Positions 1,325 through 60,300 of a stretch of DNA of 64,000 bases are shown here, piece after piece. The position numbers were made by a program, and so were the translations under genes. Position 1 is the first letter of the stretch. Each line of letters starts with the position of its first letter. The DNA lies in assembly GCA_003118195.1 (NCBI GenBank), contig BEXV01000171.1:60202-124201 (forward strand), written 5' to 3'. This stretch comes from Hemicentrotus pulcherrimus (lineage: Eukaryota; Echinodermata; Echinoidea; Camarodonta; Strongylocentrotidae). A model generated the notes under the pieces. The model was not told where the DNA came from. It ran no database searches and saw only the letters and a list, made by a program, of their open reading frames with translations.

Positions 1325-1465
1325 TCTAGTAAAGAGTTACGAATGATTCAAGTCTATCGCAACTTGAAATCAATCGCAGCTGTGTAGTTGATAGATAAGG
1401 GAATGTGAATTTGTGGAGGACATGCAATCGCTTCTGATCAATTGCAGTTCTTTACAATTCTGTGG
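1325..1465. repeat. Degenerate foldback repeat, copy 1
   Basis: The left part (AAAGAGTTACGA, then CGCAACTTGAAATCAATCGC) and the right part (GCAATCGCTTCTGATCAATT, then GTTCTTTAC) are imperfect inverted copies of each other. The same words recur in opposite orientation at 22336-22460, which points to a short dispersed repeat family. Confidence 0.45.
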
Positions 1466-3620: not shown

Positions 3621-3648
3621 TTTTTCGTACCACTACATTTCGCTAACT
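3621..3648. repeat. Fragment matching a MITE-like terminal repeat
   Basis: CGTACCACTACATTTCGC here resembles the right terminal repeat of the inverted-repeat element at 10815-11379 (GTGCCACTACATTTTCGCC). No matching left end was found nearby, so it is probably a solo or decayed end. Confidence 0.35.
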
Positions 3649-6546: not shown

Positions 6547-6646
6547 CTCTTGGAGAAATTCGTTCCCCGTTCGGTGTGACAGTATACCCAGGAGATACAG
6601 CTAGATTTGAATGTGAGGTGAATGGTACCGTGCCAAAAGTCACAAC
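6547..6646 (+). CDS. DCC/NEO1: Exon 1 (visible): first half of Ig2
   Basis: The exon starts at visible phase 2/3 (CT completes a codon begun upstream), after acceptor aactag, and ends at a strong donor (gtaagt). It reads LGEIRSPFGVTVYPGDTARF, then ECEVNG: the A' and B strands of an Ig domain with its first cysteine (residue 22 or so). It aligns with DCC Ig2 (MGDTVLLKCEV). This is the first exon visible, so the gene is 5'-partial. Confidence 0.88.
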
Positions 6647-12344: not shown

Positions 12345-15300
12345 GTATTTAAAAAAAGATGATGTTGTAATGTCAATTTGTCCCGTCATTTAGTTACTAG
12401 ATAATATTGACTCTATTAGGTGCTTTTAATCAAAATATTGAACTCTTCCCAATTGTTGTAAGTATCATTAGTATAAGTATCAAAATTCAATACGTTGCCG
12501 ACATTTAAACACTTAGCATAACAAGTCATAATCATTTTACAAGTATTTAATATATAATGCTAGACATTTCTCTGAAATACTTCAAAGGTGACTCCTCCTT
12601 TTGGCTAGTCTTGCATCTTTAACAAATACAGTTAAAACATGGTTGAGGGGGAAGACAAATAGACTGGAGGCGGTTTGGAATTGCATTCAAAATCAAATTA
12701 TGAGGCGTTTGGGGGCTTGCATGTTGTCCAGTAATGCATGCACCATAACATGATTTGCAGGAGATGGTTTAAAGGGGTTTGTCACACAATGCTAGACAGT
12801 ATGAACAGTCGCAAACTATTTTAAGAGGCAATAGTCAGAAGTGAGCAATTTTTGTAGTTTTCGTATTACTAGCATGACAAATTGGGTCAAAAATGCACAA
12901 GGGTTAGTTTTTGGTGATCTAATTTTGTGTTTGGATTTATCTTGCCACCTGTTTACCGGGTATATATTGTTAGGTAATATTGTTATTACCATTATCATTA
13001 CTATTAAGGCTGATAACATTTTTTAAGAATTGGACCGTAATATTTGAATGACAGCTATAGAAAAAATTAACCCTTATATGTTCTGAACTTGGTTTTTTTT
13101 ATGCCACTAAATTTTTTAACAAATCAACATGTAAATGATGTGTGAAGGAATGAAATTGAAAGGTTGATACACTCATTAAATTTCATACTCTGTTTACAAG
13201 TCAAGAACCATACTCCCATTGCCAAATATACGAGTATAATTCTAAATGGCAGGTGCATTTTTACTTGGGTTGATTCATGATTGATGAAAAACAGATTTCA
13301 TTGTGTAATGACATTTCCATTTGCATTGCTGCTTTCTTTTTCTTTTCTTCATTATTGCAATTGAAAAACAGAATGAACTTGACAGGTTCCTACATTGTCT
13401 CCAATACTAGGCTTTTTACTTATTAGATTTAGAATATTTTTTTCCAAATTGTTACTAACACTGACAGAAAAATTGGCTGAAAGCAAAGTGTTTTATTTAA
13501 AAATAATAGGGAGTAGATCCATCAACACACACACAATGTATACTAAATTGACCTTGCATGTATGTTACAGTGATTAAAACCATGACATTCAGACTTGTTT
13601 TGAAACTACCACTTTAGATGATTCGATACCATGAAAAGAAAACATACAAATGATACAAACAGAGGGGTTTTGTCCAAAACTTGATATGAAAACAGGATAT
13701 TTATGTTTCAAAAAGAAAAAAGAAAAAATATGTTCAAGTGATACAAACAAAGAGATGTTTTGTCCAAAAGGTGGTTTTAATACAGCATATTTATGTTTCA
13801 AAAATAAGGAAAAAAAATATTGATACAAATGAAACAAACAAAAACATGTTTTGTCCAAAAGTAGATATTAATACAGGATATTTAATTTTAAAACTGTTTT
13901 GTGATTGCAAAAATAATTTCCAAGCACAGGTGATGCCCGAAACAATAAGAATTGATATTTAATTAATAGAACTTTATCAATAATGTAATAGAGTACGTAG
14001 AATGGACTGATATAGCAATGTAAAATGTAATTATTAGTTTTTCGTAATATCCTAAGGAATTTCTTTCTTTTTTAAATTCTAAAATCCTTAAATCTGAGCA
14101 GTTGGAATGTTGGGCTTCTACTAGAATTTTGAACAGTTTCTGTATTTTTTTATTTCGCTGATTTCCTTTAACAGTTCCACCTGAATTCCTGGAGATGCCT
14201 ACAAACACCTACGCCAGGTTGGGTTCTACCGAGACCCTCCCGTGTACTGTTTACGGTATTCCGACACCCTCCATACAATGGAAGAGTCATGGGGATGATG
14301 TTGACTTGCTGGCTGATGGTGATTTCTTGAGCGTTGATAACCAGGGACTGACGATTCGAGACTTGACTGATCAGGACTCCGGTATTTACCAGTGCCTTGC
14401 CAGCAACCGTTGGGGCAACATCCAAGCTACGGCTCAACTGATTGTGCTTCCAGAAGGTAAGTCAAAGACTGTTACGTCTTGAAGAAGCCCTTGACTTTAT
14501 CCTGCAGAATCATGGAAAACTTGTAAATAATCTACTATCAGAATCCTAGGAAGCTCCTTTTTACCACTACCAGATAAGTTGTCAAACACCTTGCAACTAT
14601 CAACTTTATTTCTAATGCACTACAACAAAACCAGCTTGATATCACAAGAAATTGGTTTACTTTATAATGTTAAAACTTCCGATTATCTCGTTAGAGTCTT
14701 ATGAATTTGTAAGGAGCAGCATTGAAACATTTCTCTAATCAGAAAATTTGTATATATTGTCCAAAAGTATATACTTTACTTTTTATTATTTGTCCCCTAT
14801 GAATTGAGAGGAAAAGTTTGAGTATTAATTTCATAATGGGATATAATGTTCTGCCAATAGCTACCACATCAAATAAGTAAGTCAAGACAGTTTTGTGGAA
14901 CATGTAATTTAGGTTTTTACATCAAACACGCATTTGTTTTTCACCCTCCTTGACTCTTGTAGACCAGATTTATGAAACACATGTTACATCAATACTACCA
15001 AGTCAGATACAATTCCATACAATCACATTGACATGTTTGTGTCACATATATACTCTTTACTTCATTCTAGCCACAAAATCATTAAATGAGAGTGAAAACT
15101 GCCTCCATGACATTCGGGCCATTTACATCACTTGTCCAAAAGCGAGAAAAACAAGTATTTCCCCTGTATAACAAAATATTACCTAGCGCAGGTGCAAGAG
15201 GTCCTGCCTTACCTATGTAAAGTACTCTGATACAATAAAATAAGGTATTCATGCCATGAAAAGTATTGCCATCGATCTTGAAAAATTCAATACGATTATT

Positions 15301-24300: not shown

Positions 24301-27300
24301 CAATTTAGAAGCAAAATAGAATTGCTATTTCTGGCTTATTCATGTTACGTGTGCAACAGCACTATATTTACACTTCATATAATATATTTAAAACTATTTT
24401 TGGAAAAGGCTAATTACAGTGATGTAGATCAGAATATCTAGAGGACTGTGAAAACATACACCCTCATTCTAGCAGGTATCTAGATTATTGTTCCTGTACT
24501 CTTTTGGAACTTTCTGACATTTTCTGAACACTTTACATTCTTATTGCTACTGCATACATTTCCAACACAGTTGCACATCAGTTATACCAAAATCAAATTA
24601 TATCAACCCACTTAAAAAAATACTGCACAAAAGAAAACATACCAAAGACATCAAATTTCAATTTGCTTAAACATTGGCAGAATGTTATATCAAACCAGTA
24701 CAATATTGACATTGTATCAGTTCCTTCAAATTATGCTATATCATGGTTATATAAAATCATTCAAGTGTTTTGTATGTCTTTAAACATGTAAGTTACTAAT
24801 CAGTCCACTATTCAGTTAGGCACTTTTCAGTAAATTAGATTCATTTTAATGATAGACATGTATTTGATGTATTTTCAAGAGAAAAGATATATTAAGTCTC
24901 TTGCTCTTATCAATTATTTTTTACTGTTTTTTTTTACTATAAAAGATTAAGATAAAAATGATCGAATGAAGATAATATTTTTCATGACATGTCATATTGA
25001 TGAGCCCTACCCCACCCGATGTCCCTTGGCCATATTTTGTGCATGGTTGTACGTTGTACCTTTATTTTGATCCTAATTTATTTACATTATATGATGTTTT
25101 ATTATAGACAGCATTATTGTGTCTGCACATTAATGTTCCTGCAGTTTTAATTTTCTTTGTGAATATGTGCTCTGTTTTGTGCTTTTTATTTTTGCATTGA
25201 CTTTATAGCTGACTCTGTGTTTTAATATAATAACTATGGTGGATTCACAATCCACAGCGCCATAACTGGATAAAGTCGACAAAAAATATCAGCTGTAGCT
25301 TTTTTATATACCAAGGGGATTTAATCCAAATTTTTTGGTGGGGAAGGTTTGAATAGCATATCATGTGTGATTTTTTTTACCCTACCTTATTGACCCTACT
25401 CACATCGTTTTGGCCAATTTAACAACAACAAAACAATTTTGGATAGGAAACTGAGCGTTATAGTCACTTTTGATTAGGGATAATTTTTCCAATCATTATT
25501 ATCAACAAAGGAGATTTGAAAGGCCCTCTCTATGTAAAAATGTGCCCTGCAAATGCTAGCAAAAGTGGTCAAACCCTGAGCTCATCAAAAACAATTTGGG
25601 TCATTTTTGCCAACAAAAGACAATTTCTGTTGATTTTTTTCCAAAATCAGACCAAACTTTAAGTTAATTGACAGGTGGCTTTTGACATCCAAATTCACTA
25701 TCAAAATATGCACTGATATCAGAACAATCAATCTTGTTGAATGAATTAATATAGTTTGGACCACTTTGGTCATTTGGATCGGTAGCAAGCATTTTGCTGC
25801 GCTGCACTGGTTGAATCATGTCGCAAGCTGAAAAATTTGCTTGTCAACAATACGGCTTGCCGGTGGGGGTGCTGTTCATTGTGAATCCACCTTATTGATA
25901 AATAACATGTTCATAAGACCTATGTATCTATTTGAAGAGAAATACATAGCAAGAGCATTAAGCTTGATACTGCTCCTTTTTATAAATGTAATCCAACCCC
26001 TTTCTACTGTTCAGCAGCATTATTTCTATGGTATACACTATTTGTGCAATTTGTTAATGCATTTACCTACGTTTTTATGTCTACCATGTAAATTGGACAA
26101 TTACAATCAAACCTAATCTTTTGACAGTTCATATGAAATAAACTTGGATATTTGACGAATTAGCTTAAGAATACCTGCTCATAGAAATAACTTATTGAGA
26201 AGTAATCAGTGGATAGAGAAATATGAAGCCCTTTATGTATGCAAATTGGGATACAATGATAACAATTGAAATATTTATTATTCCATTCTCATTTGTGTTA
26301 GCTATGTGTTGTCATAACATGATATATTTTAGCAGATTGATTTTGAGTTCTGTCATCAAGTGTTCTTATTCTGCATGTCTCATGAGTACTCCCAGTCTGC
26401 ATGTATATGATCCTGATAAAGTAAGTATGGAATGCTTCATGTTTATGATTTTATATTGTTGCCATTTGTGACTTGCATGGTTGCAGCATGTTTTTATATA
26501 TTGCATTTGTGTTTGTCTTTGTGTTTGCATGCCACTCCCCACCCCTCCCTTGATGATCCATCTCCCACTCCCACCCCCTCTGCCCACCAAACCTTCCCCC
26601 TGATCAGGAGTTGACCCCCCTGCACAGCCACTACCCATCCCCTCCATACCTCTACCCATTGACGTGCCAAACCCCTTACCAACTGAGTTACCTGTTCTTC
26701 CTGATGAAGAAACTCCTACTGGACCCGTGGCTACCGCACCTCTTGACCTGAGTGCCATAAGTGTTCAACCTCAGAGCATCACGTTGTCTTGGAGACCACC
26801 AACTTTTATCCCAGGATCTCTCCTTCGATATCAGCTCTATCTTCAGAAGGATGAAGAGGGCGCTAGGTAGGTGATCAGTAACTCAACTCCCTACAGCTGA
26901 AATATGATATCTCTGATTTTAATGTCCAATGCTAAAATAATTGTTTCATCCTCTTAACTGGAACATCAGTATCTTTCTATATTCAATGGGCAATGTTTTA
27001 AAGTCATTTTACATGCTTTAAGTCTTAGTGCAAATATTTGTTACTTCTAAAAATACATGCTAAAAATTTGTTTCTAGATATGAATAGAAGGAGGAGGATT
27101 TGAGTGGTGACGAGGGTATTCTTGAAGAAAAAAAAAACAGCTCATGCTCATGAAGTTAAAGGGAGTGGGTCGTCAGTTTCCATGTGCAGAAGACCGTAAT
27201 TCGCTGACACCAGACTAGATGGAAATACCATTAATGGGAGTACAAATCTGCACACAGCGAACCCATTGGCCCATCAAGAATTACCCCCTAGTCTCTCGGA

Positions 27301-30300
27301 GCATGCTTGGTGATTCTTCAGGCGAAGGAAAAGCAAAGCATTACATAAGGTCTAATGGTCATAAAACTCAAGGCTCACCGTGGTGATTGACAACACCTGT
27401 TATTGGGTAAACACCCGAACGGTGTCAATTCCCCATGATCACTGACTTCTATGTGACTTTAAATGAGATTTTGTGGCACAAACAGGGATTTTATTCTTCA
27501 AATTGAATATTTTGGAATATTGAATGACCTTGATTGGAACACACAGGTACATCCCAAGAGCTTGTAGATGTATTTCATATGAGTCGGGTACAATGAGTGA
27601 AATATTCTCAAAGTGAGTGCAATATAATATAACTAATAACTAATATACCATTAAACTACTTTTAAAACATTGTCCAAATGTTGATAGTACCATTGAGATG
27701 GAGTGAACATAAAAGAGGTATCTATTATTTTGTGTGTCTGTGTCTTTATAGGAAGAGGCTTGTGGATGTCAACAAGGATTCCTTGACTAAGATGGTGACA
27801 GATCTCTTACCTAATCAAGCCTATCGTATATGGGTAGTAGCAGAGAATAACAATGGACTAGGAGCATCTTCTAACGTCATCATAGTCACAACACCAGATG
27901 ATACAAGTGAGTCCATTGGTTTATGATTTGTTACTGCTCGGGTAAAAATTTACAGCATAGAATGTTTTTCAAGATTGAGATGGTAATTACATGTTTATAT
28001 GCGTACATAGAGACTTCTTCAGTAAATATCAGTTTTTGAAAATAAAAGTTTATTAGATTATCATTACAATTTTTCAGTGATATGAATTATAATTTTCCTC
28101 CTGGTTGCAAATGTGATATGAAGATGTGTATGAAAAACAAATGCATTGTTACTGAAAAAGCAGTGAACTTGTTGTCAGGGATTTAATACTGTATAATGTA
28201 GGAAGTTGTAGAAAGTTGAATAGTTGGTTCATTATGTTAAACATCTTGCTTGAAATATACAACATTCATTATTTTTATCATTTACCAGGAGTGACACCTG
28301 ATGAAGTGACAGACTTGAGAGCCCTCCCACTCTCCTCCACCTCGATGGAGTTGTCATGGCGACCACCCTTTGACACGCACGGTGACCTGATGAACTACAT
28401 TGTTCGGGTGACTGATGAGATGATGGGGAGTACGATGGAAAGAGAGGTGGCGCCCTCGGACAAAAGCCTCATTCTTGACAACCTGGATGTATACACGCTG
28501 TATGAGATGACGGTTATCCCCTATAATGCTAATGGAGCGGGTGGAACCAGTACTATTGATGCCAGAACACCCGGGGCAGGCAAGTATAACTAGGATGATA
28601 TAATGATCCAGTAATACCTTTTGTTCTAAAATTCAAAATTTTCTCTGTTATTTTGTTGTACAATTGGTACTCCAATTTGTGTTTGCTCTATTTTCACATA
28701 TTGTCAATATATATTTGGTGTTGTTTAATGAAATTTATGAAAGAACTTTATGCCACATGTTTGATATAGTCAGAAGATGCCAATATCAAAATAATTTGGT
28801 AACAAATCATTTGATCAAATTAATTTCACATTGTTTTTATATACTAGTATACTATTGATGTGTCAATTTATAAAGAAGATTTTTGTAACAAAAAGTTTTT
28901 TAATGATGTGTACTCTGAATCTTACTCTGTGTCGACTCCATATGAATCTGAATTATTGTTTTTAAAATGAAATAAATACCAATTTAAAAATGATCTTAAA
29001 CTAACTCATATCATATATTGTTTGCTTTTTGTTTAGATCCAACTGGTATGCCAACTAATGTGAGTGTAAATCCTGCTCCAGCAGTTCCCAATGCCCTGGA
29101 TATCTCTTGGGTACCACCTCCAATCCATGAGCGTAACGGAGAGATCATGGAATATAAGCTACGTTACCGTGTGAGGGGAGGAGAGGGAATACCGGTCACC
29201 GTAATGGGGAAAGCTACTTCATACAGAATAGAAGGTGATTATACATTCATCACAAAAATGAATCAAGAAATATAATTCATGATTAAAAATATTTGTCATG
29301 ATTTCCTTATTGAATTTAAAAAAATGTGTGTACATGTAAGGTAACGAGCCTACTGTTCATATGAGAGTTGGAGAAAATAAGATAAACTCTACCAATAAAG
29401 CTAATTTATACGAGGAATTTGTTATATAACTTCTAGCTTAATTCCTTTAATACAAAGATTGCGTTTGTCTGAGTCAGATTATTATATACAGATAATACAT
29501 GTTACTTGACTGGTTGAAGCATTGAATGTAAAGTTGAATGATAGTAACATGTCCATGAATTTTGCCAACTGCCTGAAGATGATGTCCAGTATGTTGACAC
29601 ATTTTCAGCTTTTCTAGAGAGCAAAACATATTTACGTTGAGTGGGGAAATAAATGCTTGGGGGTTTCAACTCGGTTGTCTTTTACAAACACACATTTGCA
29701 TTTGAGACTCTCATGAATAGACGCAAGAAACAGACAAAACCCAACTTGGCACTGACATTATTATGACATTCCTATAACACCCATCCTACTTTTGAAAATG
29801 TAGAATTTCCTATAGAATTCAACATAAATGCAAAATATCAAAGAGCCTTTCAAATAAGCTGGTGGGAATCAATATGTGCCATGTTTATGTTTCTCCTGGG
29901 TAGTTAAAACTCTAGAGTTTCCTATAGAATTTAGCATACTTTGCACGATTCCAAAGAGCCTTTCAAATAAGCTGGTTGGAATCAATACATAACATGTTTA
30001 TGTTTGTGCTGGGTAGTTAGTTTATGAGGTTTACAATAACACGGTTATGAACCTTGAATCTCCTTGAACCTTGACTTAATAACAAAAAGGCTATTCTGCT
30101 CTATGTTTATATTGTCATCTTATGAAATTTATATATTTGTTATCATTTTTTCATGCAAGAAATTCAGTGTGATATCAGTTCATACCTGCTGTGAATTTGA
30201 ATTTGAATCTCATAATGGGAGCAATTGAAGTATACGCATAGTATTGGAGAATCTGACTGGGTTGTGTAGTTACAGAAACTTACCTCTTCAAATTCTTCTG

Positions 30301-33300
30301 CAGCCAGTTATAAATGTTTGTTTTTTATAAGGTTTTGAATAGGTATGTTTAGACTAAAAATGATATAATAATGATAATCCAGGAATCAAATTGATCAAAG
30401 AATATTTGAATAATCAAGCAAAATTTTAATTGTTTTCAAAAGTTATGGTCATGTTAAATTCACAATGTGAAATATGAATATATGTATAATATTTAAAACT
30501 AGTTAACTGACCAATGCTTGATGTTACCTAGCCGGAGTAATAACATATGTTTGCCCCCTCCTCAAAACAAATGATCGTAGACCTGGAAAGAGAAACGGAT
30601 TATGAAGTAAGGATAGCCATGGTGAATGTCAATGGAACTGGACCGTTCACTGAGTGGATAGCCGGTAGAACAGAGGTTCTTGCACCAAATGGTAAGGAAA
30701 CAACGTTTTCTTTTTTTTTTAAATGATTATATAGGACTATGTTCATTATGAAACATTAAAAGTCTTTTACTTTCCTAACTGACTTTGTGGAACTTTATAG
30801 ATCTCTGCCTAGGCTTGAAATTATTTCTTCCTTTTTCATGAAATAAAGTCTTTTCTCATAGCAGTCAATTTTTCTTTTTACTCTCATTCCCGAAGGTGTC
30901 CAATGGTGGTATTCTTTATGGGAAATCACTCTTATTTTTATATTGCGAAATGCTCTTTTATTTCAATAATAATTAATTTCTTTCTGGTTAAATTTTTCAT
31001 TTTCTGTTGATAGAAAACACTGTCTATATCAGACACATTCTAAGTCAATTGCATTCCCCCAAACACAATATCTAGCAATAAAGCACATTGTGTAGGTATA
31101 GTAGTAGTATTCTTTTAAGGAAATTCCTGTTTCTCTCAACCCAATGGGGTCACACTTTAAGATGCTATATCTTCCTTTCTGACTTTTCTCTATTTGTTCT
31201 TGAAACTAATGGTCTTTGATACTAACTCATATTTTTCTTTTGTTTTTCACTTCTTTCTTATTTCATTCATTTTAATAATATTCCCTCTTCCTAATGCTTC
31301 AACCATGCTCAACTTTCAATGATATCCCAACCTACCCTTTCCCAACCTTGACTCCTCCATCGTAAAACTTCTCCTTGTTCTGGGTAATGGTCTCCCCAAT
31401 AGAAGACGTACCACCGCCCCCTCCCACCGTAATTGAAACGCGAACGTTTGCCCATCAAATCACCATGCATTGGAGACATCCCGAGGCAGCCATAGTCCTG
31501 GTGGAGGGTTACATTTTGGGTTACGGGGAGAACATCCCTGACATTACAGTCCTTGAGTTGGACGGCTCAACCCGCTATGTTGAGCTAGAAAATCTTAAAG
31601 TGAACACAAACTATGTGATCAAGCTTAGAGCTTTTAACAAGGCTGGAGAGGGCCAGCCCGTCTTAGAGAATGTCAGGACAAGCACTGATGGCAGTAAGTT
31701 GGCAACATTTGGTTTATGCATGGTCGTCTCTGTTGATAGCAGTTGTGAGGTTGTTACAGCATGATATCGTCTACGTACACGTCTTGTCGTGTATTATGCA
31801 TCTTGTTGCATGCTCTTTTAGGAATGACGCATGTTGTGTTGTTTTGCATGATTTGATTTCAGTCTGTATGTATTATCATATCGAACAATAAACTGTTAAC
31901 TTGTGTATACAAATGATAAAAGGCAAATGTTTTATGATTATAGCTATGTTTAAGGATATGTATAAATGTGTGAAGAACTGAAATTACATGTAGACTAATC
32001 TGGAACACATGGAAAGTTGTTAATGGGTGATTCTATGCAATGTATCCCATACCGAAGTACAATGAATGACATTTATCCACACATTTTATCCATGAATGAA
32101 ACATTACTGGATATGACTGACTGATGGTAGTGATACCCGAAAGCACCTTTATTCAGTGGTCATATATCATATTCTGCATTGTGGGATAAAAAAAGGAGGC
32201 AAGGTGGATCGTCTGTAAGCGTCTGCCTGTCATACCAAAGATCTTGGGTTCAAATCAAACAGATTTCAATCATAGTTACTGATATATATTATGCATAGTA
32301 ATATTTGTCTATGTTTCTTTTTAGTGATTATTTTGAAGAACTTGATATATTTGCATGCACTTGTGCACGTTTTTATTTTTGTAATGCATTTCTTGGTGTG
32401 TTCAGTATCAACATTACTTCTAAATACAAAGAAATCACATTGTTTATGAAGGAGGATATGAAATGTAAATTACATCCTTATCAAAATGTTATCAATAATT
32501 TATTTTTAGCGACAATGTTATGTTACTCTGTAGTAATACTTAAGGTTTGTGATCAGTAGGGCGATAAATCTTGTGACTATACATATCTTCTCTAACTTCT
32601 TGTTGCATGTATGTAGTTGTCTGTGTGGTATTATCTTTTGTTAGATGTTGTTTTTTGTCATTAATATAACTGTTATATCCATTAACATCAAACTAACCAA
32701 TTATCAGTATACTTTCTTATATTAAATGATCTCTGTCACTTTAATTCTTGAGACCTTGTTTATAAAGACTACATCAACAAATGCAGCCCCATGCTGTACA
32801 AATTCTTTTATATTTTTTAATTGAAATATATTTAGAAAATATATTTGATTTTTAGCCATATAACAGATTATTGAAAGAAGCATCAAGCTGATAATATTAT
32901 TCTGCACGAATGAGGTCTCAAACGTAAAGTGACAAAGATAGTGCATCGTATTTCATGTTTTATCTATCAATCTTCTTTCCTTTAGAGGTTCGTCTGGGTC
33001 AATGCTCTCTCTCAAACATTCTTTCATCTCTATCTTCAGTATCTACTCTATTTTTCCAGTCATTTTTCAAACTTTTTCAAGCTTTCCAGATTCTTCTTTC
33101 ATTTACCAACATCTATGCCTGACATTTGTATTATACATCATCACATTACAGGCAGTATTCCCTATATCGGAATGGGCCTACCCCCAAGTAAGATAAATTA
33201 AGTTCTTTTCTTGAAGAACGTGGTGTTACATATCATTTCAATAGCCCTTTTTATTTCATCCCTTCTCATCGTCATCATCACCATCATCATCGGCTTCATT

Positions 33301-36300
33301 ATTATCTTCACCTTGCTACATGTCTTGTGAAAAAAGGGGCTGTTTTCATCAAATTGTTTCTCCTCTACCATTTTTGATTTAATTTCTTTCTTTTCAGTCA
33401 TTCTTACCTTATTTTCCATCTGCTAATGCTGGTTCAGCATATATATGATTTAAACAACTTCCTAATCATGCATGGATAATGCCAACTAAAGTTTATATCT
33501 CTCCTAATATGCATGGTCTTGATATCTTCATAAGAATGTCTTGTGTATATGTATTGCATGCATTACCTGCACATTTAACTATAAGCATGATAAGTAAGTT
33601 TGGTATTTTAAATGTGTTAGGTTGCCTGGTTTCTACTAGAAACCTTGCAAACAATTAAAGCAAATCAAATGACTTTCTTTCTCTGATATGTTGGTTAAAG
33701 TTTGCAGATATGTTTAATCAAGTTTGATTGGTACATTTTACACCCTTTGAAAAATACACAGTGAAGTAGCAAATAATTATACAAATAATGATAAGATAAT
33801 GATACTAATTATAACACTGACCGCTCTTTGTTTGTGTTGATGTATATGTCCTTTGCTTGAAATTAAGAACTATCCAAGGGGTAAAGAAGAGAAAGAGGAA
33901 GAAGAAGAAAAGGAATGAGGATTAGAGGAGAATAAAGAAGAACCAAATAAGAAGAGAGGAAGATGGAAAAGAAGATATAGAGTTGGAATGTTTTGCAAAT
34001 CACCTGCCTACAAGCTTTAGCTCGGTAAACTGACAATTCTGTTGTGTATTTGTGTTCTTTGTCAGCTGAAAGAAGTCGCACACTTTGCCACTTAATGATG
34101 CATTTCTGTTTCTGCAGAACACTAGATGGGCCATTTTGACACACTGATGCATTTGTGATATTTGTGCCACTCGCTGGATTTGCAATAATTATGTGGCTTT
34201 ATTTGTGTTCTGCAGTAAGCTCAAGTCAGAGCATTTGTGATATTAGTTGTTTCTTGTTAACTTAATGATTACTGAAGTCTTTACAGGGGTTACCCAGTTC
34301 ATGGAGGCAATGGGTTGAAAATTATGAAAGCTTGACGGTATTTTGAATGAAATATGAAAACTTTCCTCAAAGAGTATTTTTAAATTACTGAAATATTTGG
34401 CTGCATCAGAGCAACAACAATTAATTTCGACTATTTTTTCCTCCATTTATCATTTGAGTTGAGTACAGAGATATGAGAGCCATTTGGGCTTGAGAATGTT
34501 TTGAAAGGTCTCGATTTCTTTTCATTATTCAAGTACAAATGATAAAATCTGTTCGAAAGATAACTCAGTGTTTTGCTTGATTGCACTATGTGAAAACTCC
34601 TGTTAGCACACAATGTCAGATATACAAGTGTAAATAAAGTGAGCAATATGTTGTTCATCTAATGATGATAGTGCACCTTATATTTGTGTTTCTCAGTGTA
34701 ATGGCTTAACCCTGGAACTAGTACTGCTAATTGACAACATGGCTGATTATCCATTTTTTGTACTACCCTGTTACACAGTGCACATAATGTGATTCTTTAC
34801 ATGTTAATTTAATATGTCGAGGTTTTTTATATTTGTATGGCAGAAGCCTTTCAAAACAATAAAATTGGGATTTTGTATTCAAATAGCATAAAAAATTCAA
34901 AAAACATGGGAATTTTTTTTTTTCCTTAGATTTTAGATTTTAGATCTTAAATGATATAAGAACTGGTCGTTTTGATAAAGACATGCGTTTGAACCGTTCT
35001 AAAACCAATTTGAGTTTGAAAGATCTCTTCTAATGTTAGATGTTATAATGTGTTCTTCAAAATATGATCATATTTAATTTCTGAAAACAGCTAGTTTATG
35101 TGCACATTGTTGCAATAGTTGTGACTCAGCTTATACTTTTCTTATACCTGTACTAAATTCAACAAGTTATCTGAGCTTTGTTATTTTAAAAATGCATTAT
35201 ATTTTGCAGAAATGTAAGCATGTTTTTTATTGTTGTCCTAGGCACTGGATTTGAGAAGACCATGCAGACACCTTCAGAGTTAATAGCAACACCGGAGTCA
35301 TCACGAGCAATCCTGCTGACGTGGTATGATCCTAACCCTGCAAGTCAAGAGGAGGGAGTCATCAGATATTATTCCTTGGTGTATAGCAGGAACAATGGGT
35401 GAGGATAATGTAAACATTAAACTATCGTGTTAAGAATGATCCTGTGTTATTTATGATCAGCTCACAATATCCAAAATGTATGATACGCATAAGGAAAAGG
35501 GTAAAATGTTTTTATTAGTCATATTCAGCTATCAGATCTTTGACAGACTTTAAAAAAAAAAGACATTAGGGAGTCTTGATTCCTAAAACAGTTTCCTCTT
35601 TAATATTTTAATCTACTTTTATACCCAACATACTCTAAGATATTTTTACTTGGATAATTTAGACTTTATGGTTGACAATTTTGCTAGCTTTATCTTGTGT
35701 ATTTGTTTGTTTTTACTTCTAATTGTTTTTTCATCCTTAGTTTGTGTCTTGTATTATACTGTTCATAAATTATTATCATCTTTTTTTAATTTACAGGGCT
35801 AACTTCTTGTTAAAAAAGTGTTGTAATCACTGATGAAGCCACTCTGGTAAACAAAAATCTTAATAAATACATATGAATAAATTTTGTGTCTATTACTTTC
35901 ACCCTGAAAGACCAACATACTATGCCAATGCCACACAGCCTCAATTCCTAGTAACGGGACTGAAGCCAGCCACCATGTATGATTTTCAAGTCATGGTTAC
36001 AGAGGGTCAAAAGGCCAGTAAATTCTCTATCATCACCTCTGCAGAGACAATGAATGCAGGTAAGGGCCTTCTTCTCTCTTTATTATATAAGTTTTTTTCT
36101 TTTATTCTTTTATAAATAGCCAATATGGTTCATTTTTTAATTTAGAGCCAGAATGCTTTAAATGATTTTAGATAGAGTTGTCACTCTTCTGGCTCCCAGC
36201 AAAAGATAAATCACTTATTAAAAAAGAGATTTAAGCTGTTGCAAAGATGTCCCCAAGCTATTAAAAATCTGACAGATTGTTTGCCGTGATAGCGTTATTT

Positions 36301-39300
36301 GACATCAGAGGGGAAAATCTAATGTAACAACAAGTTTTAATTCCTGATTATAATCTAGAAATCTAAAAAAAGATTGTTGTGCTGGATTATGTCCATGTAC
36401 AAAGTGAAAATCAGCAATAAGGTATTTGTTTTAATAAGCTTTTTCATTTAGACATTGACTTGAGTAAAAGATATAAAGTTAAAATGCTAATACAGGACCT
36501 AAAATGAACCCCAATCTGCATTGTAAGTACAAGAATTTTATCTACATTTATGAAAGCAAACTCTATTCATCCTATACATGTATTACTAGTAAATTCTTAC
36601 AATATATGCAAATGAGTTGTTTGATAAAAACATACATGTAACTTGAAAGATGCAAAGGGCCATTGTTTTTTATGTAGTGAGTTGTGCCTCCCAAGCTTCT
36701 CAAATGCTTTAAAAAGTCTGCTATTTATATCTTTATATTTCTAGATATTATCAACCGCCACCCTTACCAAGGTACTTTGTCCAATAAATGAAAATTGTTA
36801 GGAATGTTGCATGATGATTAACAATTGTGCCCCATCCATCAAACGAGTAGATCCGTTGTGTAAATCAAAGTGCAATGTTTAACAAGTGTGCCCTGTCTAC
36901 AAATTGATTAGATTGCACTCTGTATAAAATTGAGTGCAATTTTATCAATGTAAGTCTACATTCAACGTGATAATTTTTCCCCATATGGTTTGTGCATCTG
37001 TTTAAGTCTTCATCCAAAAATTGTGCAAGTGATTCTTTGTTTTATATGTTATCCATGTTCATCGGCAGATCTATTTGTGCTTTATTTTGTTTCATCCATT
37101 GGAAATGCCATTAATTTTTATCATTATAAATCTGGTATAATAATGTGAGAATTTGATTTGTGGTATTCCCTATATCTCCATAATTATAGAAACATTCATA
37201 TCCTAAATGACAACTTTCCTCTTGTTCGTATCTGGTATAAAGTTGGAACATTTCTGGCATAATTTCTGTCCCTTGAATATCATGTCAATGTATAATTCAT
37301 CATACCTGTGTGGCAGTACTCCCTGTGAAACAATAAATGGTGTGCTTCCAGAAAGCATGATTACAGTACTCTCTGCATACCAATAGGTAAACTGTATGCA
37401 AGTGCCTTGTATCGTAAACAACAACAATGTGCATGGTAGATCTTAAGAAAAGATTTTTGCAAATAATGTATAATTGCTTTATATTGGAAAAACTTTTCCC
37501 AACTTCAATTAAATGGACAGTCAAGAGGGAGAATTATCTTATGCTTGTTATGACATAGGAAAATCACTCATATTGTCCTTCATCATCCTGTGGATAAGAC
37601 ACAACTTCATCATGTTGATGACTGGGGCTGAGATATATTGAGCTAGGGTTTGTGGAAAATTGATGTTATAAGCAAATTTAAACTGTATTTAGTAGGTTGA
37701 AATATAAGAGATTCACAGGTGTAAATTGATCTCAAATCGTGTAGGTAAAGGCAGGCAAAAGTAAAGTTAAAAAAAATAGCAACTTGAGAATTCTATGAAC
37801 AGAAAGCTGAAATCACGCAATGTAAACGGAAGCTAAAGAAACAAAGCTTTTGAAAAATAATGGTCTGTGATTTAGTGCTGGAAAGTAGACGTAATACTAT
37901 TCATTTAATTAAACAGGCTACAGGAATGCTAGCTAGAAAAATTCAGTCATCTACGAATGCTGGAAGCCGTGTATATTAAGCTTTAATACTGATCCTATTC
38001 TGTGCTGACACATGAGGCCTGTCCTCATCAGACCGAAGTGGCAAAATAACCTGCTATTTTAACTAGCCTAATTTCAAATTAGCCAGCTAATTTGCGTTTT
38101 CATCAGCCCCCAGTTGCAATTAGCGGGCTATTTGGTCAAAAAAATATCCCAAGAAATCTTAGTCTTTCGGAAATAGCAGGGAAATTTGCACCAGTTTGTG
38201 ATGAGCATATTGGTCTGGTGAAGACGCAATTTAAAGCTTCAGGAAAATATCCCGAGTCTGAAAATAGGGGGTTAATTTGCAACTTTGGTCTGATGAAAAC
38301 AGGCCTAAAGAGTTTGTAGGAATCTCATGGTATTCTAGCTACAGACCATGTCCATTAAACAGCTGGCATTATGTCTACTTCCTTGCAGCCAATCACAGCC
38401 ATTATTTTCCTTTAGCTTCCATTTATATTGTATGATTTCAGCTTTCTGTTCAGTGTTGCAATTTAGTCTCATGGGTGCAAGACGTAAGGCTTTAATAAGT
38501 ATGTATTTGTTGCTATTCTTCAACTTTTATAGAACAAATGATCACATTATAATGATGTTCATAAAGTAAGTATAAACTAACTCTTAATGTAATTGGAATC
38601 ATGTAGTTGCCAAATGTAGTTGTGTATTTTTTAGTATTGAATCAAAAGTGTTGTGGTGTACAGTGTTTTGTCCCTCTTTACTGATTTAGAGGATAGTCTA
38701 GCAAGTCCTCTTAATTAAGTTTGATTAACTTCTTGATATTATACGTTTTCAAGATTGATCTTCAAAGTTGATTAAGCCTTCTTTTAATTGTATCTTAGTT
38801 CCAGATTCTGCACCTCAGGAGCTTACAGTTAGTGATTTTACCAACACTTCATCATCTCTGGTTGTTGCCTGGCAACCACCTCTTCATCCTAATGGAGACA
38901 TCACACGTAAGCATGGACAAATCAAACATAGAAATAGAATCAGAACAGGGTAAAGTCTCCTGTTCTATTAAATGTGGTAGTAATACCAAATAAATTCTAC
39001 TTTTCTTGTAATAATTCATGAGATTTGTTTCTCCCCCCAGAGTCAAGCTCTTTAAAAAAAAGTGCATTCCCCATTTTCTGTATATGTGCAATTATATGTA
39101 TATAGTTATTTACTTCTATAGGCATATATTTATAGGCATATTTTTACACAAAACAAAGTTTATTTGCTGAAAAGAAAGATTTTGTGTTGGTCATGTACCA
39201 TACAACTTATGTATATCCCCAACATCTTAATAACAGATTTGATTAGTCTTGGATCAATATTTTGTGGTAATTTTTTCAAAGAAGCAATTTTGTCTTTCGT

Positions 39301-42300
39301 TCAGAAACGTATCTTTATTAAGTAATGCTCATGACTTACAGACATGATTAGTTGTATTGTTTCACTAATACCTATACTTTTGTCTCCCAACAGGCTATAT
39401 ACTATTCTATGGACCTAAAGGCACAACGAATCCTTCAGAGATTGAAAGGATGGAGGTTGGAGGAGAGACACTTACCACCTTCGTTCATGATCTCGATTCA
39501 AATTCAGAATACGATTTCTCAATTCAGGCAGTCAATGGTGCTGGTATAGGACCTATATCTGATGTAGTCACACATAGAACCAAAGGTATGACTACTGTTT
39601 CTTGTTTTCTGCAGCAGTATTCAATTCAATACGGGATTAAGTCAGTAAATACCAAAGATGGATAACTGTTATGTCTTATCCAAAAACTGAGTAAAATAAT
39701 CATATTTCTCAGATAATAAATTAATTGAATACTGGCCCTGATGTGCATTAAAGTGACTCAGTAACATTGTTGAAGGTTAATGAAAAAATTGCGTAATTTT
39801 TGTATGAAATTTTACCTACGATATTGTACTAACCCTCTTACATGCAAAAAATCCTGAACAAATTCTCAAACCACAAGCATATTTATGGTTTTCTTTGAAG
39901 GTGTCTCTGTGCGACATCCTCTAACAGTAAATTCTCCCAACCATTTTTGAATTTTCCCAACCGTTTTTCCATGAAAATAAGACATAGACAGGCTATTAAA
40001 AATCTTTCAACACTTAAACGTCTAGAGTGGTATATAGAGCAAATTCATTGCCTTGTGACGATTTACATTCACCTAGAATGTAATTGAATTGTAATAATAT
40101 AGTTGGGAGGATTAAGGAATCGATCAGATCAGTTTTTCCCTATTTTTATCACTGATAAGACCATTATCTTTAATTGTACATCTAGCATTGAAGATACTAC
40201 CATACTAGTGCCATTTTTCTCTCATCGGAACAATGTTACCAAGTCCCTTTAAAGACCTTACATCTTTACATTATCTCTGTTTTTAGCAATGAGAGAATTT
40301 ATATAGTTTTGTTTTCATCATACCGTAATCTCTCTTTGAAGTAATTTCAAATAAAGATGTTCATGTTGTGTTGCACAGGGGAGTTATCTGCTTGTAATCT
40401 TACATATGAATCAGCAACTGCTGTTGTTCAATGAATATAGTCGGGTCCAATGAATCAGGAACCCATATGAAATTGCATGCATCATTTGATGTAGTTGTAG
40501 ACATTTTAAAAGAAACATGTATAATGTATGATGACAATCAGAATTTAGTACCTGTATATCAGAAGGAATCACAATTTGTACTAAGCTAGATTGTTGACCA
40601 AGCAGAACTGGCACTTTTTAAAACTGTCTGTTGAGAGCCAGAAGGGTGTTAACTCTGTGTTAAACTGTATACCAGTAAGCGCATCCTATCGGGTCCAAAC
40701 AGAGGTGTGTTTCTTCTTTTTTTTCCATTTATCTTTTTTATCATTGGATTATTTATGACAAATAAGTAGCTTGCTAATTGCTATGCTAGAAATGCCACCT
40801 CCTTAAAAAATCATTGACAAAAGTTTTTTTTATTTTGTAAACAAAATTGACAGTTTGTTTTTAGAAAGTTATCTATTTTTGTGTGTGTGCCCCACAGGTG
40901 CAGGCGCAGCAGCCTACCCTGTGGATGATGTGGCGTTCCCCTGGTGGCTGTGGTTGGCTATTGCTCTAGCCTGTCTCTTCCTCATTGCCCTGGCCATCGC
41001 CCTGCTCTTCTGTATCGTCTGTGGCTGTTGTCGATGCTGTCTGAGATGCTGTCCGGGCTGTGCATCCCTCTGTGATGATATCTATGCTTGCTTGGAGCCG
41101 TGCGGAGCCTGTCTCGCTGGATGCGCATCGGGATGCTGTCCATGTTGCTGCGAAGACGAAGACGACTGCGCCAAGTGCTGGACAAAGTGCTGCTGTGGTG
41201 TGCCTTGTTGTGTATGCTGTGGAAAAGATTATAAGGAGAGGAGAGCAAAAGCGTAAGTTCTGCAGTATTCTCTCTGTAAAATTGCATCCTCCTTCGTGTA
41301 TTTTGGAATGTAGGAGAAATGGCCAAATTTTAAATGCTTTGTTGAAAGAAATTCCAGATTATACAATGCAACCTATTTCACTCCATATAATCTCTAACAA
41401 ACAGTTTAAAAGTTTCAATACATACAATGTTGTAATCTGGAGTTCTCATCTACACCACCGACTAGAAGTGCCTCTATAAGAATTGATATTGAATGTATAA
41501 TCTGAAAATCTGGTGAAGTCAACTGTACCATTGATATATTAATGATGTCTTTTCCTTGTGTTCATCTTTCAGAGAGCTGACGGGTTATAAATCTGTATCG
41601 AACGGTAAAGCAATTCACGCTACCAATGCTACCCAGGTGGAGGGGAATCCCCCTGATCTCTGGGCTGATGAACTCATCATGAAGCAGATGGGAGGAAAGA
41701 ATATGGCTACACCATCAGAGATGGAATCACTTAATAAATCTGAAAGTAAGTCACCGTTTGTTTACAGCCTTATTTTTAATCTTTTATGCTTGCTTTGTTA
41801 AATCCCAGTATTAATATGTCAGTGTCTTTTAGTATTAGCGGCCTCTGAACAATTCACGTTCATGACCCTATTTTAGGTTCTCATATATTTACATAATAAC
41901 ATTTTTAATCTTAATCATATATTATAGGAATATAACTTTGTCCTGTATAGTTCTGCATCGTTCTTGAAAAATATATAACTCTAAAGATGACTTGTTCTAG
42001 GCATACAAATATATCATAAATGACTTGTCCAGGATAGAGATTAGATTAATTCATAATAATGGCTGAATACTAGATTTAGCTTGCATTTAGATAGATGAAT
42101 AACATACCCAGTCTTCATAGGATGTTGCTTGTGTAGTGACTCATTTCCTTGAGATACTCCTGTCTCTTTGATTCTTTGGTTGAATCATGGATTCTCCTGT
42201 CCATTGATGTGGTGGGATTCAGTAAAAGTTTAGTACGTCTGTTGGTGTGATGCCCTACCTTATGTCAGAAGTGGTTAATTCAATCCATGTCTCCTGCTTG

Positions 42301-51300: not shown

Positions 51301-54300
51301 AGGAGGTAGCATGTCTTATGGTGGTGTAGGAGGGTCTGGTCTGTCCAATGGAACATCGGCTGATGCAGGGCGTTACTCCTCGAGCCACTCCATGTCTGGA
51401 AGTCGCTACTCTTCCAACAATAATAACTCTACGGGGGATGTCTTCTCTGATACCGATGCCGAGGTTGCTAGTACTATGAGTCGTGCTAGGAGCCAAGAAG
51501 GTATAGCAAAATCTAGCCTACAAACTTGGTCTTGATCCCATTAGGACAGCTTCTTGAAAAAGTGAAAATATATAGAGCGCAATGCTGCTATAGCAGAAAA
51601 TACATGACAAGATAATTGGAAAGCTGATAGACTAAAATCTATGATAAAATTATACAAATTAATAGCTCTTTACTTCAAAGACAGTGTACTGTTTTAGCTT
51701 AGATATAATGCTTCCAGTTTGAAGTAGATTATATTTGGTCATTGCAATGTGGTATGAACTAAAACATAGTGTGTCCCTTGTTTACAATTTAGAGAGGCTA
51801 CTGAAAGGAAATATGCAATATGAGATATATCTTGCTCTAGCATTTCAAAAAGCTTTGGTGTAGTTATACAGTTTTCTACATATCTTGCATTGAATTTAGT
51901 TGTGCTTTTCAATATTGCATAACATGTTTATCACAAACCACTGTGAGGTCCGTTGTATCTCAGAAAACTAACAAAATTATTTTGTGTAATTCCGTGGTTC
52001 ACAAAATCCTGGAAGTAAGTTACTTAGATAGCTTCTTTGAATAAAATATACAGGTTTTCACTTTGCAATTCTTATTTGGCAGATTCTCTTTGCATGTCCT
52101 GATATTTGTTTCTTGGATTCCCTGCTACATATAACTCTATATTATCCTTCATTCATATTAAGACTTTTTTTATTTTGGGGCTTCAGGAATATTAGAAAAA
52201 ACAAATAAAATGTTAAGCTAACCAGTAGTGAAGCTATTTAGAACACAGTTAGTGAGACGCAAAAATACCAAATATACCTTCATTTCTTCAACCCTTGTCA
52301 AGCCCTATATATTTCCCCAATATTTGGTACTTAACTTCTAAAATACTTTGCTAACAGTTTTTACTTTTCATTGTTTATGCTACTTTCCCTGAGTGATTTT
52401 ATTTATTTCCCTTCCTCCTTTTATCCAATAAGTTTTATACCATCGTCCTCCCATCCCCCAATCTTCCTACCTCCAACCTCCTCCCAATCATCATCATCAT
52501 CGACCACCACCACCAGAGGCTGTCCTCCGTCGCGCACGCTCTGCCAATTTATTTCGCGAAACGAATGACCCAGCGATGGACTATGCTTTTGTTGGAGGAG
52601 ACGACACAGTGTCCGAGATAGGGATGTCAGAGTATGAGAGGCGTCAGGCTAGGGTCATGGCTCGGGTCAATCACACGCTCAAACAACGTGTCGTTTCAAG
52701 GGCTATGTCACTTGATCATGTAGCAGCTCAACAGATTGTTGATAGAAGAAGAGGTAGAGAATAATACATCTTAAGTCCTCATTAATTATTGTTTCATAAT
52801 ATAATAATGATAATAATGAAATATCGTTATAATACTATAAAATCATTATTCAATCATCATTTATGTATAATTCCATATTATTAAATGAATATCGTATATT
52901 CAAGGGAAACATCTATAATCCATTATGCTATTCAGTTATATTTAAATAATAGTTAANNNNNNNNNNNNNNNNNNNNNNNNNNNNNNNNNNNNNNNNNNNN
53001 NNNNNNNNNNNNNNNNNNNNNNNNNNNNNNNNNNNNNNNNNNNNNNNNNNNNNNNNNNNNNNNNNNNNNNNNNNNNNNNNNNNNNNNNNNNNNNNNNNNN
53101 NNNNNNNNNNNNNNNNNNNNNNNNNNNNNNNNNNNNNNNNNNNNNNNNNNNNNNNNNNNNNNNNNNNNNNNNNNNNNNNNNNNNNNNNNNNNNNNNNNNN
53201 NNNNNNNNNNNNNNNNNNNNNNNNNNNNNNNNNNNNNNNNNNNNNNNNNNNNNNNNNNNNNNNNNNNNNNNNNNNNNNNNNNNNNNNNNNNNNNNNNNNN
53301 NNNNNNNNNNNNNNNNNNNNNNNNNNNNNNNNNNNNNNNNNNNNNNNNNNNNNNNNNNNNNNNNNNNNNNNNNNNNNNNNNNNNNNNNNNNNNNNNNNNN
53401 NNNNNNGGGAGGTGGAAAGTAATCCAATGTCATAAAAGAAAAAATGTTCTGGGATACCATTGTAATGTATATTAAGTATTATTAATTATTGTGAAACACG
53501 GTTAAGTCTCATTTGAGACAAGAGTACTCTACTAATGAAGATGAGAAAGTGGCGTCTTTTATCAATAACTAAGGTTCATCTGGTGAATAGTTCTGTGCAT
53601 TTCGACTATATGTTTATCATCTATTTCCATGTGAAAGAAAATGGGTTGACATAGCAATTTGCCATTTCTTTTGCTTCCTTCTATCAGGGTAAAGAAAGGC
53701 AACCTAACAAGCCATTGGTGTAAGCTACATGTCCCCATCTTTCCTTCTTCCATTCAGCTTATTTTCTCTCATAACATTTGTCTTCCTTTCACATGATAAC
53801 GTGAATGTTATTCGGTTCACTGGGATAAACACTAGCTACTTTTTTTCCATGAACCTGTTGACACAAATATGAGTGTTCTTTTTTTTTATTGATGGCTTTT
53901 TGCCAAAGATTTGATCCTGTATTAGCTGAATACTGTTTCCTAATGAGGCAATTTATTGCCAGAGTACTAAAATAGTTCAGAGCCTAATTTAATAGTCATT
54001 ATGATCTCACACTAATGAATGTTAACCAATTACCATCCATGTCCAGGAACATCTTGAAATCAAACACATGTATTATGCTTATGCAAGCTATTTTCTGTGT
54101 TTTTTAAAATATTTTTATCGTTTTTGAGTGTTTGGAAATTGTTCCCAATAAAAATCTTCTTGTGTTTGATCAACAATCATTGAAAAAATGTTTTTTTTTC
54201 TTCAAAATGATCACATAAAGTGCATGTCCCTACTTTATATCTGTTATTTTATGCCAGTGGACAATAAACAATTTTCAATCTTTTGCATGGAGCAGATTTA

Positions 54301-57300: not shown

Positions 57301-60300
57301 ATAATTAATCCTAGTTGAACAAAGCAAAGTCGAAGGCAATTCACTATAAAAAACTATTTTAAAAAATCACATCATTAAAGTTAGGTTCTTTTAGCACAAA
57401 CTTGACACAGATGTGTGCTTGATTAATTTGATTAATATTTGCATCATTCAGACATTTTGTTTTGTTTCTAATTGCACATAACACACACATACACACACAC
57501 TGTTATAGATTAAACTATATTTTCAGTCATGTGATTATACCAATGTATGTTGGAATGGTTTGTATATAACACTATTGTTGTTGCAGCTTTGTGTTTAAAT
57601 CAGCTTTTTGCCAATTACATGTAGACTTACTAACAAATTATCTTTTTGTGCTGCATTTTGCTAATTCATTTATATACTTTGTGTAGTGCACCTTAATGTA
57701 TTTCATTTTACAAGCTGACAGTTGTGTACATGATTCAGTTAAGTTTGTATGAATGTCGATATTCTGCTTTGGTTATGTGAAAGTCTCATAATGCTGTTTC
57801 TGAATGTTTTGGATCAATAGCTTATGTTTGTTAACATGTTGTTTCCAAGCACATGTCTCACAAAAATGGTATCCTAAAAGAATTGATGATTAATTTCAGT
57901 TCCAGCAGGCTTTATTTGTGTGAGTTGATTGAATGAGATTTCAGAGGCAAATCTAAATTAGATATTGTTTCATTTGACTTTAGAGGCAATTTTTCATTTT
58001 TTATCAGTCATATTGTGAGCTATTACAAGTCATTTATCTTTATTTCCAACTCCCATCAAGTGAAGTTTAATTTATAGATATACATGTATTGTAATAAGAA
58101 ATAGGGTTGGCGTTCTTTTACACAAATTCATGCACTAAAATCAGCTTTGCAGTTATTTTTTTTGTCAAAGCTTGTATAGTCTAGGGATCCTGAAACACTG
58201 ATCCGTAATTACTTTGGCATTAGAATTTTTATGAAGTTAATACTTTTTATTGTTTAAAGGTTGTCAATAATAAGGTATAAATATCCTAGAAAAAAAAAAT
58301 CAATTTTAAAAGCTAGAGCAATTATTTTTCATGAGACATAAAACATATTTACTTTTTAATTTGAAATTATTTCAGAAAACCAAACATGAACTCCATATAA
58401 GCCTCAATGCTATTCATTTTGTTCTTGCAATCCAATAATTCAAGCATGAATTATATGAGGTTACAAAGAGCTGTACTAGATCCGAGCCTTTCAGTGTAGA
58501 TGATATATGTGTTTACACTAATCTGTACTTTTGTGTCCAGCAGGTTACCATAGTGATACCAATGCCAGCTCCCAAGATGAGTCCGGTAGTCAAAACAGTG
58601 GTACTGCACCCCGCACCAACCCCCTCTCTAGCTTCACTGTACCCGCTCCTCCTCCTCACTACCAACATCCACAGGCCAAGGGTATGTATGCGTTATTCAA
58701 CTGATCCTGATGTAGATGGTGATGAAAATTATGTTGATTTTGATAATGATGATGATGATGGTGAAAGTGATGGTGGAGATGATGAAAAATGATATTGATT
58801 AGGGGGATAATAGTGATGATATCAATGATAATTGTGGTAATAATGATGATAATAATGATAATAATACTGATGATGATGATGGTGGAGATGATAATAAAGA
58901 TTTTATTGTATTGTATTGTATTATTTATTCGGCACTTTCAAGAAATATAACAATTAAACAATATAAACGTAAATACAAAATTGGAATGACAATGATGGTG
59001 AAAATGACATTGATTAGGATGATGATGATGACAAGGATGATGACAAGGATGATGAGGAGCATGATATTGATTAGGAGAAGGATTATGATGAGCATGATAT
59101 TGATTGAGATGATGGTGATGACGAAGAGCATGTTATCAATTAGGATGAGGATGATGATGATGATGATGATGATGAAGAGCATGATATTGATTAACATGAG
59201 GATGATGATGATACAAAGGATGATGAACATGACAGTGATTAAGAGGAGGACGATGAAATCAATTAGGAGAAAAATGATGGTGAAGAGCATTATATTGATT
59301 AGGGGGATGATGATGGGCATTATCATGATAAGAAGAAGGAGGATGATGATGGTGAAGAGTATGATAGTGATGATGATGATGGTGATGATAGTAATTAAAG
59401 CACTGAAAATAATATTTTGATAATATAAATATATCATAACGTATAAATGATGATGATGATGATGGTAATGACTAAAATGGTAGTTATGATGAAGATGATG
59501 AAAATGGAATAGAGCAGGAGGATAGTAATAACAATGTTATTAAATGAAATATGTGATATGATATACCTTTGAACAACACAGACTCTCTAAGCAATTGATA
59601 ATGCTTATGGTAGTGATAATGGTTAGATTAGTCATAAGGATGACAACGTTGTTTATGTTCATGACAATTATAATTTTAATGAGGTACTGCAAATGATATG
59701 ATAATGTTCAGAGTTTATCAATTCAAACCCTAATTGATCAAGTGGATTAACACCTAGTATTCCTGTTAATGCTGTAGTGAGGATAACTGCTCCAACGTAC
59801 AGTCCACTGAAGAGAGGTCAGCCTGGGCCAGGTCGAGGGCGTGCTCAACCTATGGCTGTCATCACACCCAAAGCACCTGATGTTACTTATAGAGGAATAG
59901 GTGATGGAAACAGCCCTGGGGTGAGGATTATATCTTTCATTATCTCAATCCATTCCTTCATTTTCTCAATCCATTCTTTCATTCTCTCAATTGATTCCTT
60001 CATTCTCTCAATCCTTTCCTTCATTCTCTCAATCCATTCCTCCATTCTCTCAATTCAATTCTCCATTCTCTCAATCCATTCCTTCATTCTCTCAATCCAT
60101 TCCTTCATTCTCTCAATCCATTCCTTCATTCTCTCAATTCAATTCTTCATTCTCTCAATCCATTCCTTCATTCTTTCAATCCATTCCTTCATTCTCTCAA
60201 TCCATTCTTTCATTCTCTCAATCCATTCCTTCATTTTCTCAATCCATTCCTTCATTCTCTCAATCCATTCCTTCATTCTCTCAATCCATTCCTTTATTCT

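Follow-up and report, generated by a model that had tools for sequence, protein, structure and literature searches.

DCC/neogenin is a deeply conserved guidance receptor. In human DCC, according to PMC12556795, a cysteine lies within the last two residues of the membrane helix and 29 residues separate the helix from the P1 segment; these residues, more than half of them hydrophilic, are disordered together with P1, and with P1 they bind the 60S ribosomal subunit. In that paper, the alignment of DCC from fish to mammals with mammalian neogenin spans residues 1123-1167, which run from the membrane through the end of P1, and contains four extra residues because neogenin is slightly longer. DCC is palmitoylated in its transmembrane region, as required for raft association and netrin outgrowth (review, PMC8125918), and neogenin is cut by gamma-secretase, after which its cytoplasmic part can reach the nucleus (PMC11599459). 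Among echinoderms, a neogenin-like gene is one of the markers of a serotonergic neuron cluster in the sea star Patiria (PMC10396339), and according to PMC7555569 sea urchin DCC had not been the subject of any reported functional study by 2020. The echinoderm receptor described here carries a block of cysteines at the juxtamembrane position where DCC binds ribosomes (PMC12556795): a natural receptor has 28 cysteines where human DCC has its 29-residue disordered tail start.

A DCC/neogenin gene in the window

The window, the whole 64,000-nucleotide stretch of sea urchin DNA analysed here, holds an exon chain that encodes Ig exons, six FN3 domains, a membrane helix and a tail that contains P1-, P2- and P3-like segments. 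All exons and protein features lie on the plus strand and are given in window coordinates. The comparison record was the S. purpuratus protein P0008 (XP_011675394.1, labelled PREDICTED). The Ig2-Ig4 exons, placed by the exon chain and by collinearity with P0008, are found at 6547-6646, 7264-7460, 8736-8892, 10600-10745 and 14175-14456; two peptides from the Ig1 region of P0008 had no match at 1-6600. FN3-1 to FN3-5, with two small linker exons, occupy 26608-26866, 27752-27906, 28289-28579, 29037-29234, 30581-30691, 31403-31693, 33152-33187, 35242-35398, 35911-36059 and 36745-36771. FN3-6 is encoded by two exons, 38799-38906, collinear with P0008, and 39394-39585, for which the PDB search gave FN3 chains of neogenin and DCC (among 38 rows, receptor phosphatase S comes first and neogenin second). 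The P1 exon (SVSNGK...PPDLW, 41573-41745) shares PPDLW with its relatives, and P1 of Acanthaster planci (P0018) hits the DCC peptide in PDB entry 3o71 (E=8.1e-4), which derives from the same juxtamembrane region and whose partner in that structure is ERK2. The last coding exon (60711-60818) encodes the P3 motif (AEMMHLEGLMKDLNEIT) and the stop; it matches Pfam Neogenin_C with 32.5 bits against a cut-off of 25 (C171:120921-121004, window 60720-60803), over profile positions 267-294 only. Neogenin_C occurs in at least one place in the 414 Mb assembly (a single place was found), and one contig of that assembly has two matches to RGM_C, the family of a neogenin ligand. Single exons pass the Ig Pfam cut-off at 7205 and 14162, the ORF at 8585 having no match, and the fn3 cut-off is passed at 28156, 31366 and 39369, with sub-cut-off fn3 matches at 26604, 27666, 29000 and 35867.

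The model from Ig2 to P1 and P0008 are collinear and gap-free, with identity at 1095 of 1127 residues, and a longer model is identical at 1783 of 1894 aligned residues; the source animal is therefore a sea urchin close to S. purpuratus. Together, the FN3-6, P1 (through the sea star relative) and Neogenin_C matches and the collinearity with the S. purpuratus record bear out the assignment made in an earlier note from the letters alone, and on these matches we identify the window gene as a DCC/neogenin receptor. Chain exons at 19599, 20806 and 22454 were rejected as spurious, P0008 joining the exon that ends at 14456 directly to the one that starts at 26608; the chain exon at 48078 has an S. purpuratus match and is real.

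Several other features of the gene were observed. The intron at 28579-28580, after exon 28289-28579, apparently has a GC donor (GCAAGT) instead of GT, since the P0008 match requires the exon to end before GCAAGT. A 36-nt in-frame exon (SSIPYIGMGLPP, 33152-33187), present in P0008 and optional as to frame, lies in the FN4-FN5 linker, a location that matches the alternative long/short linker of mammalian Dcc (PMC4930329). Between FN3-5 and FN3-6, a 27-nt exon (DIINRHPYQ, 36745-36771) is likewise frame-optional and present in P0008, with one change in the L. pictus protein P0001. Long tail exons rich in Ser, Tyr and Asn lie between P1 and P2 (48931-52753); they contain islands that appear conserved by eye, such as TITFEETTT.HSVEK and SSHQTFAKSYSTSDAS, and Pfam returned nothing for them except a sub-threshold Extensin_2 match at 52432. 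A run of N lies within the gene at about 52957-53410, and a short repeat array that reads FLHSLNP in one frame (59995-60350) lies in the intron upstream of the last coding exon.

The cysteine-module exon and its conservation in echinoderms

Between FN3-6 and P1, a 355-nt exon (40898-41252, split codons at both ends) encodes a short extracellular stem, the transmembrane helix, a cysteine module and a basic stretch. It is one open frame of 117 full codons with an acceptor (ccccacag/GTG) and a donor (AGC/gtaagt), joins both its neighbours, the FN3-6 exon (39394-39585) and the P1 exon (41573-41745), in phase, and encodes a peptide that is letter for letter the same as in P0008. The helix, PWWLWLAIALACLFLIALAIALLF, covers about 24 residues (40939-41010, ends set by eye). 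Directly abutting it, in the manner of a cysteine string, the module (41011-41223) packs 28 cysteines into 71 residues, with 15 TGT and 13 TGC codons. Its N-terminal part, residues 1-41 (41011-41133), has 14 cysteines here and 14-16 in relatives; its C-terminal core, residues 42-71 (CCPCCCEDEDDCAKCWTKCCCGVPCCVCCG, 41134-41223), has 14 here. The basic stretch KDYKERRAK(A) (41224-41252), in which Y, E and R are invariant in nine aligned sequences, is probably the counterpart of the basic juxtamembrane region of DCC (PMC12556795).

This is what the earlier note had described, namely 28 cysteines in about 70 residues after the membrane helix, an acidic EDEDD patch and a basic KERR stretch, in an exon with good splice sites and in-frame homologous neighbours. 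Sites, phases, patch and stretch all agree with that description. Its bounds, 41013-41230, do locate the module, but they start on the third base of the first cysteine codon and end 7 bases beyond the last residue. Its view that the block is no frame artefact also stands, given the single open frame, its retention in 13 proteins and the identical P0008 peptide. Tandem Repeats Finder reported no array at 40000-42000, and a frameshift or repeat origin was rejected. Six-frame translation of the window gives 122 stop-free stretches that are 71 residues or longer; in these, the densest 71-residue segment after the module contains 13 cysteines. The whole-exon peptide was found in its own genome in at least one place at E<=0.001 (one found, the tool scoring only the best candidates). 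Without this exon, FN3-6 would be spliced to P1 in the wrong frame and translation would stop two codons on; the exon itself contains no internal GTRAG donor-like site. A membrane-bound product of the present gene model would therefore include the module.

All 13 echinoderm DCC/neogenin proteins retrieved carry the module, always with 71 residues and with 27-29 cysteines. They come from four urchins (Lytechinus pictus, Diadema antillarum, D. setosum, S. purpuratus) and four sea stars (Asterias rubens, six isoforms, A. amurensis, Patiria miniata, Acanthaster planci), and correspond to 2 of 7 rows from one full-length search and 12 of 29 from a second, one being shared; because the module lay within the queried regions, sequences that have it were favoured. 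The homologue search proposed in the earlier note found the block in all the echinoderm proteins retrieved. No DCC/neogenin row came from holothurians, brittle stars, crinoids, hemichordates, vertebrates or protostomes. A filter on short exact words may explain this silence, and not only absence of the module, because the expected vertebrate DCC and NEO1 did not appear either. The exon alone gave 455 candidates in the protein database, none at E<=0.001, and the length range of that search probably excludes full-length receptors. Within the proteins that the word-filtered searches returned, the module has so far been seen only in echinoderm DCC/neogenin, and the occurrence in most bilaterian DCC proteins that the earlier note considered was not observed.

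The module has kept a constant length since the lineages of urchins and sea stars diverged, some 480 million years ago. Between S. purpuratus and three sea stars (A. amurensis, P. miniata, A. planci), the module with its basic stretch (78 residues) is 59-64% identical and the membrane helix (24 residues) 58-67%, compared with 39-41% for the Ig part, 34-36% for FN3, 37-45% for the P1 segment, 26-28% for the middle tail and 62-65% for the P2/P3 end. Since the levels are similar, the constraint on the module is comparable to that on the P2/P3 end. S. purpuratus and D. setosum are 87% identical over module and basic stretch and 58% over FN3; the L. pictus Ig value of 3.1%, an artefact of the truncated record P0001, was left out. 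In the Asterias proteins P0010-P0016, the extracellular stem before the membrane helix varies, with or without ALIVPPIPPI... stretches; the module is the same in all seven despite this variation.

Change within the module follows a pattern. Across seven distinct module sequences, 20 cysteines and 13 other positions are invariant, that is, 20 of the 28 window cysteines against 13 of the 43 other positions (Fisher p=0.0013, only a guide since the sequences are related). Thirty-two columns ever hold a cysteine and 12 of these vary, the alternatives being W at 9, S at 13, G at 16, Y at 25, L at 28, I or F at 31, G at 32, P at 34, F at 43, F at 60, A at 66 and F at 67. Eight of the 12 (9, 25, 28, 31, 43, 60, 66, 67) thus change to hydrophobic or aromatic residues only, and the other four to S, G, G and P. 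The cysteine total stays at 27-29 because cysteines lost at some positions in one clade occur at others. Window and sea star sequences (three compared) are identical at 18-21 of 41 residues in the N-terminal part, where cysteine positions drift between urchins and stars, and at 24-26 of 30 in the core. Each module has 9-11 CC and 9-13 CxxC motifs, including invariant CxxC pairs at 1-4, 4-7, 7-10, 14-17, 42-45 and 53-56. Invariant residues include P, W, G and acidic ones, among them an EDE, and the net charge is -3 to -7; histidine is absent from the module in the eight proteins counted.

The helix of this exon is the only stretch of the Ig2-P1 model with a mean hydropathy of at least 1.6 over 19 residues (peak 3.2); full-length P0008 shows the same helix and a signal-peptide-like stretch at its start. 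The model therefore has a single membrane helix followed by a cytoplasmic P1, the latter recognised through the sea star relative. Thirteen helix positions are invariant in the nine aligned sequences. AlphaFold2, run with nine sequences, gave the helix a mean pLDDT of 93 (residues 21-30 of the 117-residue exon product) and 58 of the 71 module residues a pLDDT below 50, the helix alone being confident. In the module, the best hydropathy stretch (from residue 5) has a mean of 1.23-1.35 among four urchin proteins and of 1.73-1.79 among four from sea stars; at the latter hydropathy, the sea star module may dip into the membrane near residues 24-43. The summed insertion energy of this region is unfavourable in the two sequences scored (window +6.7, A. 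planci +4.1), and a full second crossing is implausible because the P1-P3 tail would then end outside the cell.

The module matched no Pfam family at E<=10 in any of seven members (filters dropping most weak matches), and its profile matched no PDB chain at E<=10. Among the open-access journal papers listed in a literature survey, none describes it in its title or abstract opening. Judged by these comparisons, the receptor family is known and the module appears to be new.

Readings of the cysteine module

We give an even chance to the module being a heavily S-acylated (palmitoylated) collar that would fix the signalling tail to the membrane. Palmitoylation is the best single reading, and it is favoured because the module starts where the membrane helix ends. 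Also in its favour are the palmitoylated transmembrane region of DCC, the cysteine at the helix end of human DCC, the likeness of the module core to the palmitoylation motif of PLSCR1, and neuropilin-2 as a guidance receptor that clusters through palmitoylated cysteines. From the observed sequence, place, conservation and frame break on skipping, we infer the acylation and its consequences as follows. Many of the 27-29 thiols would be fatty-acylated or lie in the membrane interface, and the first 71 residues of the tail would therefore be pinned to the inner leaflet. The receptor would cluster in ordered lipid domains, the basic/P1 segment would be presented just under the membrane, and after the gamma-secretase cut the cytoplasmic domain would stay on the membrane until deacylation. 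A cysteine number that holds at 27-29 while 12 of 32 cysteine columns vary, eight of them to hydrophobic or aromatic residues only, is consistent with such a collar. Other features suit it less well. The exact length of 71 residues in 13 of 13 proteins and the 33 invariant positions, 20 of them cysteines, point to more order than a simple string needs, and a plain "string" may not suffice. The acidic EDE and the net charge fit poorly with an acidic inner leaflet, the invariant CxxC pairs would also suit metal binding, and AlphaFold2 confidence is low over most of the module. In sea stars, the hydropathy near residues 24-43 could allow a dip into the membrane through hydrophobicity alone.

The main rival, because module length does not vary, is a folded cytosolic metal-binding domain, with Zn or Cu clusters at metallothionein-like density, which would act as a rigid spacer between membrane and P1 and possibly sense metal or redox state. 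We regard it as a serious but minority possibility. The fixed length, the preferential invariance of cysteines (20 of 28), the invariant CxxC pairs, P, W, G and acidic residues, and the high identity of the C-terminal core between the window and sea stars (24-26 of 30) all argue for such a fold. Against it, eight of the 28 window cysteines are variable and two thirds of the variable columns change to hydrophobic or aromatic residues only, the module matches no Pfam family or solved chain at E<=10, AlphaFold2 builds no confident fold, and histidine is missing in all eight proteins counted.

The different evolution of the two parts of the module, 18-21 of 41 against 24-26 of 30 residues identical between window and sea stars, would also suit a mixed arrangement, with residues 1-41 as an acylated string and the 30-residue core as a small metal-bound or otherwise folded unit. 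This is improbable in our estimation, the 41/42 border having been set by eye after alignment and only two clades being compared. Even less probable is a redox switch in which intermolecular disulfides cross-link receptors: the thiol density is very high, with abundant CC and CxxC motifs, but the cytosol is reducing and no observation favours disulfides over acylation. That the module is an annotation artefact, untranslated or spliced out, is hardly credible, for although the S. purpuratus record is labelled PREDICTED, the amino acids are conserved without indel in 13 proteins from four urchin and four sea star species, omission of the exon shifts the frame and ends translation two codons later, and the exon holds the sole membrane-helix-like stretch of the Ig2-P1 model.

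Returning to the acylated collar, the basic/P1 segment of vertebrate DCC binds ERK as well as ribosomes. We put forward, tentatively and with considerable doubt, that the module is a new fixed-length membrane collar that arose next to the already acylated membrane region of an ancestral receptor, before the urchin/sea star split, that it locks a flexible ribosome- and ERK-binding tail to the membrane, and that turnover of the acyl groups controls both local translation and the freeing of the cytoplasmic domain that goes to the nucleus. More generally, the module raises the question of whether the state of juxtamembrane cysteines controls receptor clustering, local translation or cleavage.

Comparison with known systems

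Metallothioneins, which are free soluble proteins with about one third cysteine in CC and CxC motifs, resemble the urchin module in cysteine density; the module, by contrast, is attached to a membrane helix, and none of its seven members had a Pfam match at E<=10. CSPalpha/DNAJC5, a co-chaperone that is not known to have a membrane helix, has a dense cysteine run like that of the module, a likeness by description. Its cysteine string, palmitoylated and membrane-binding (PMC5428344), has 14 cysteines, half as many as the urchin module, which differs further by its acidic core and fixed length. The CCCPCC motif of PLSCR1, whose Cys-to-Ala mutant is unpalmitoylated and nuclear (review, PMC11854935), recalls the CCPCCC in the module core through a local CC-P-CCC pattern; the two proteins are unrelated, 6 residues compare with 71, and the likeness is one of motif only. 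Neuropilin-2 is, like DCC/neogenin, a guidance receptor with cysteines at its membrane helix, and it is clustered through palmitoylated transmembrane and juxtamembrane cysteines (PMC10069869); it is an unrelated receptor with three such cysteines, compared with 27-29 in the module.

The closest relatives are vertebrate DCC and NEO1. That their tails lack the block, as the earlier note stated, is supported only indirectly, by the 29 disordered residues that precede P1 in human DCC (PMC12556795). The urchin receptor shares with them FN3-6, P1 (through the sea star relative), the Neogenin_C P3 segment and a single membrane helix, and differs from them by the 71-residue, 28-cysteine block that it adds between the helix and the basic/P1 segment.
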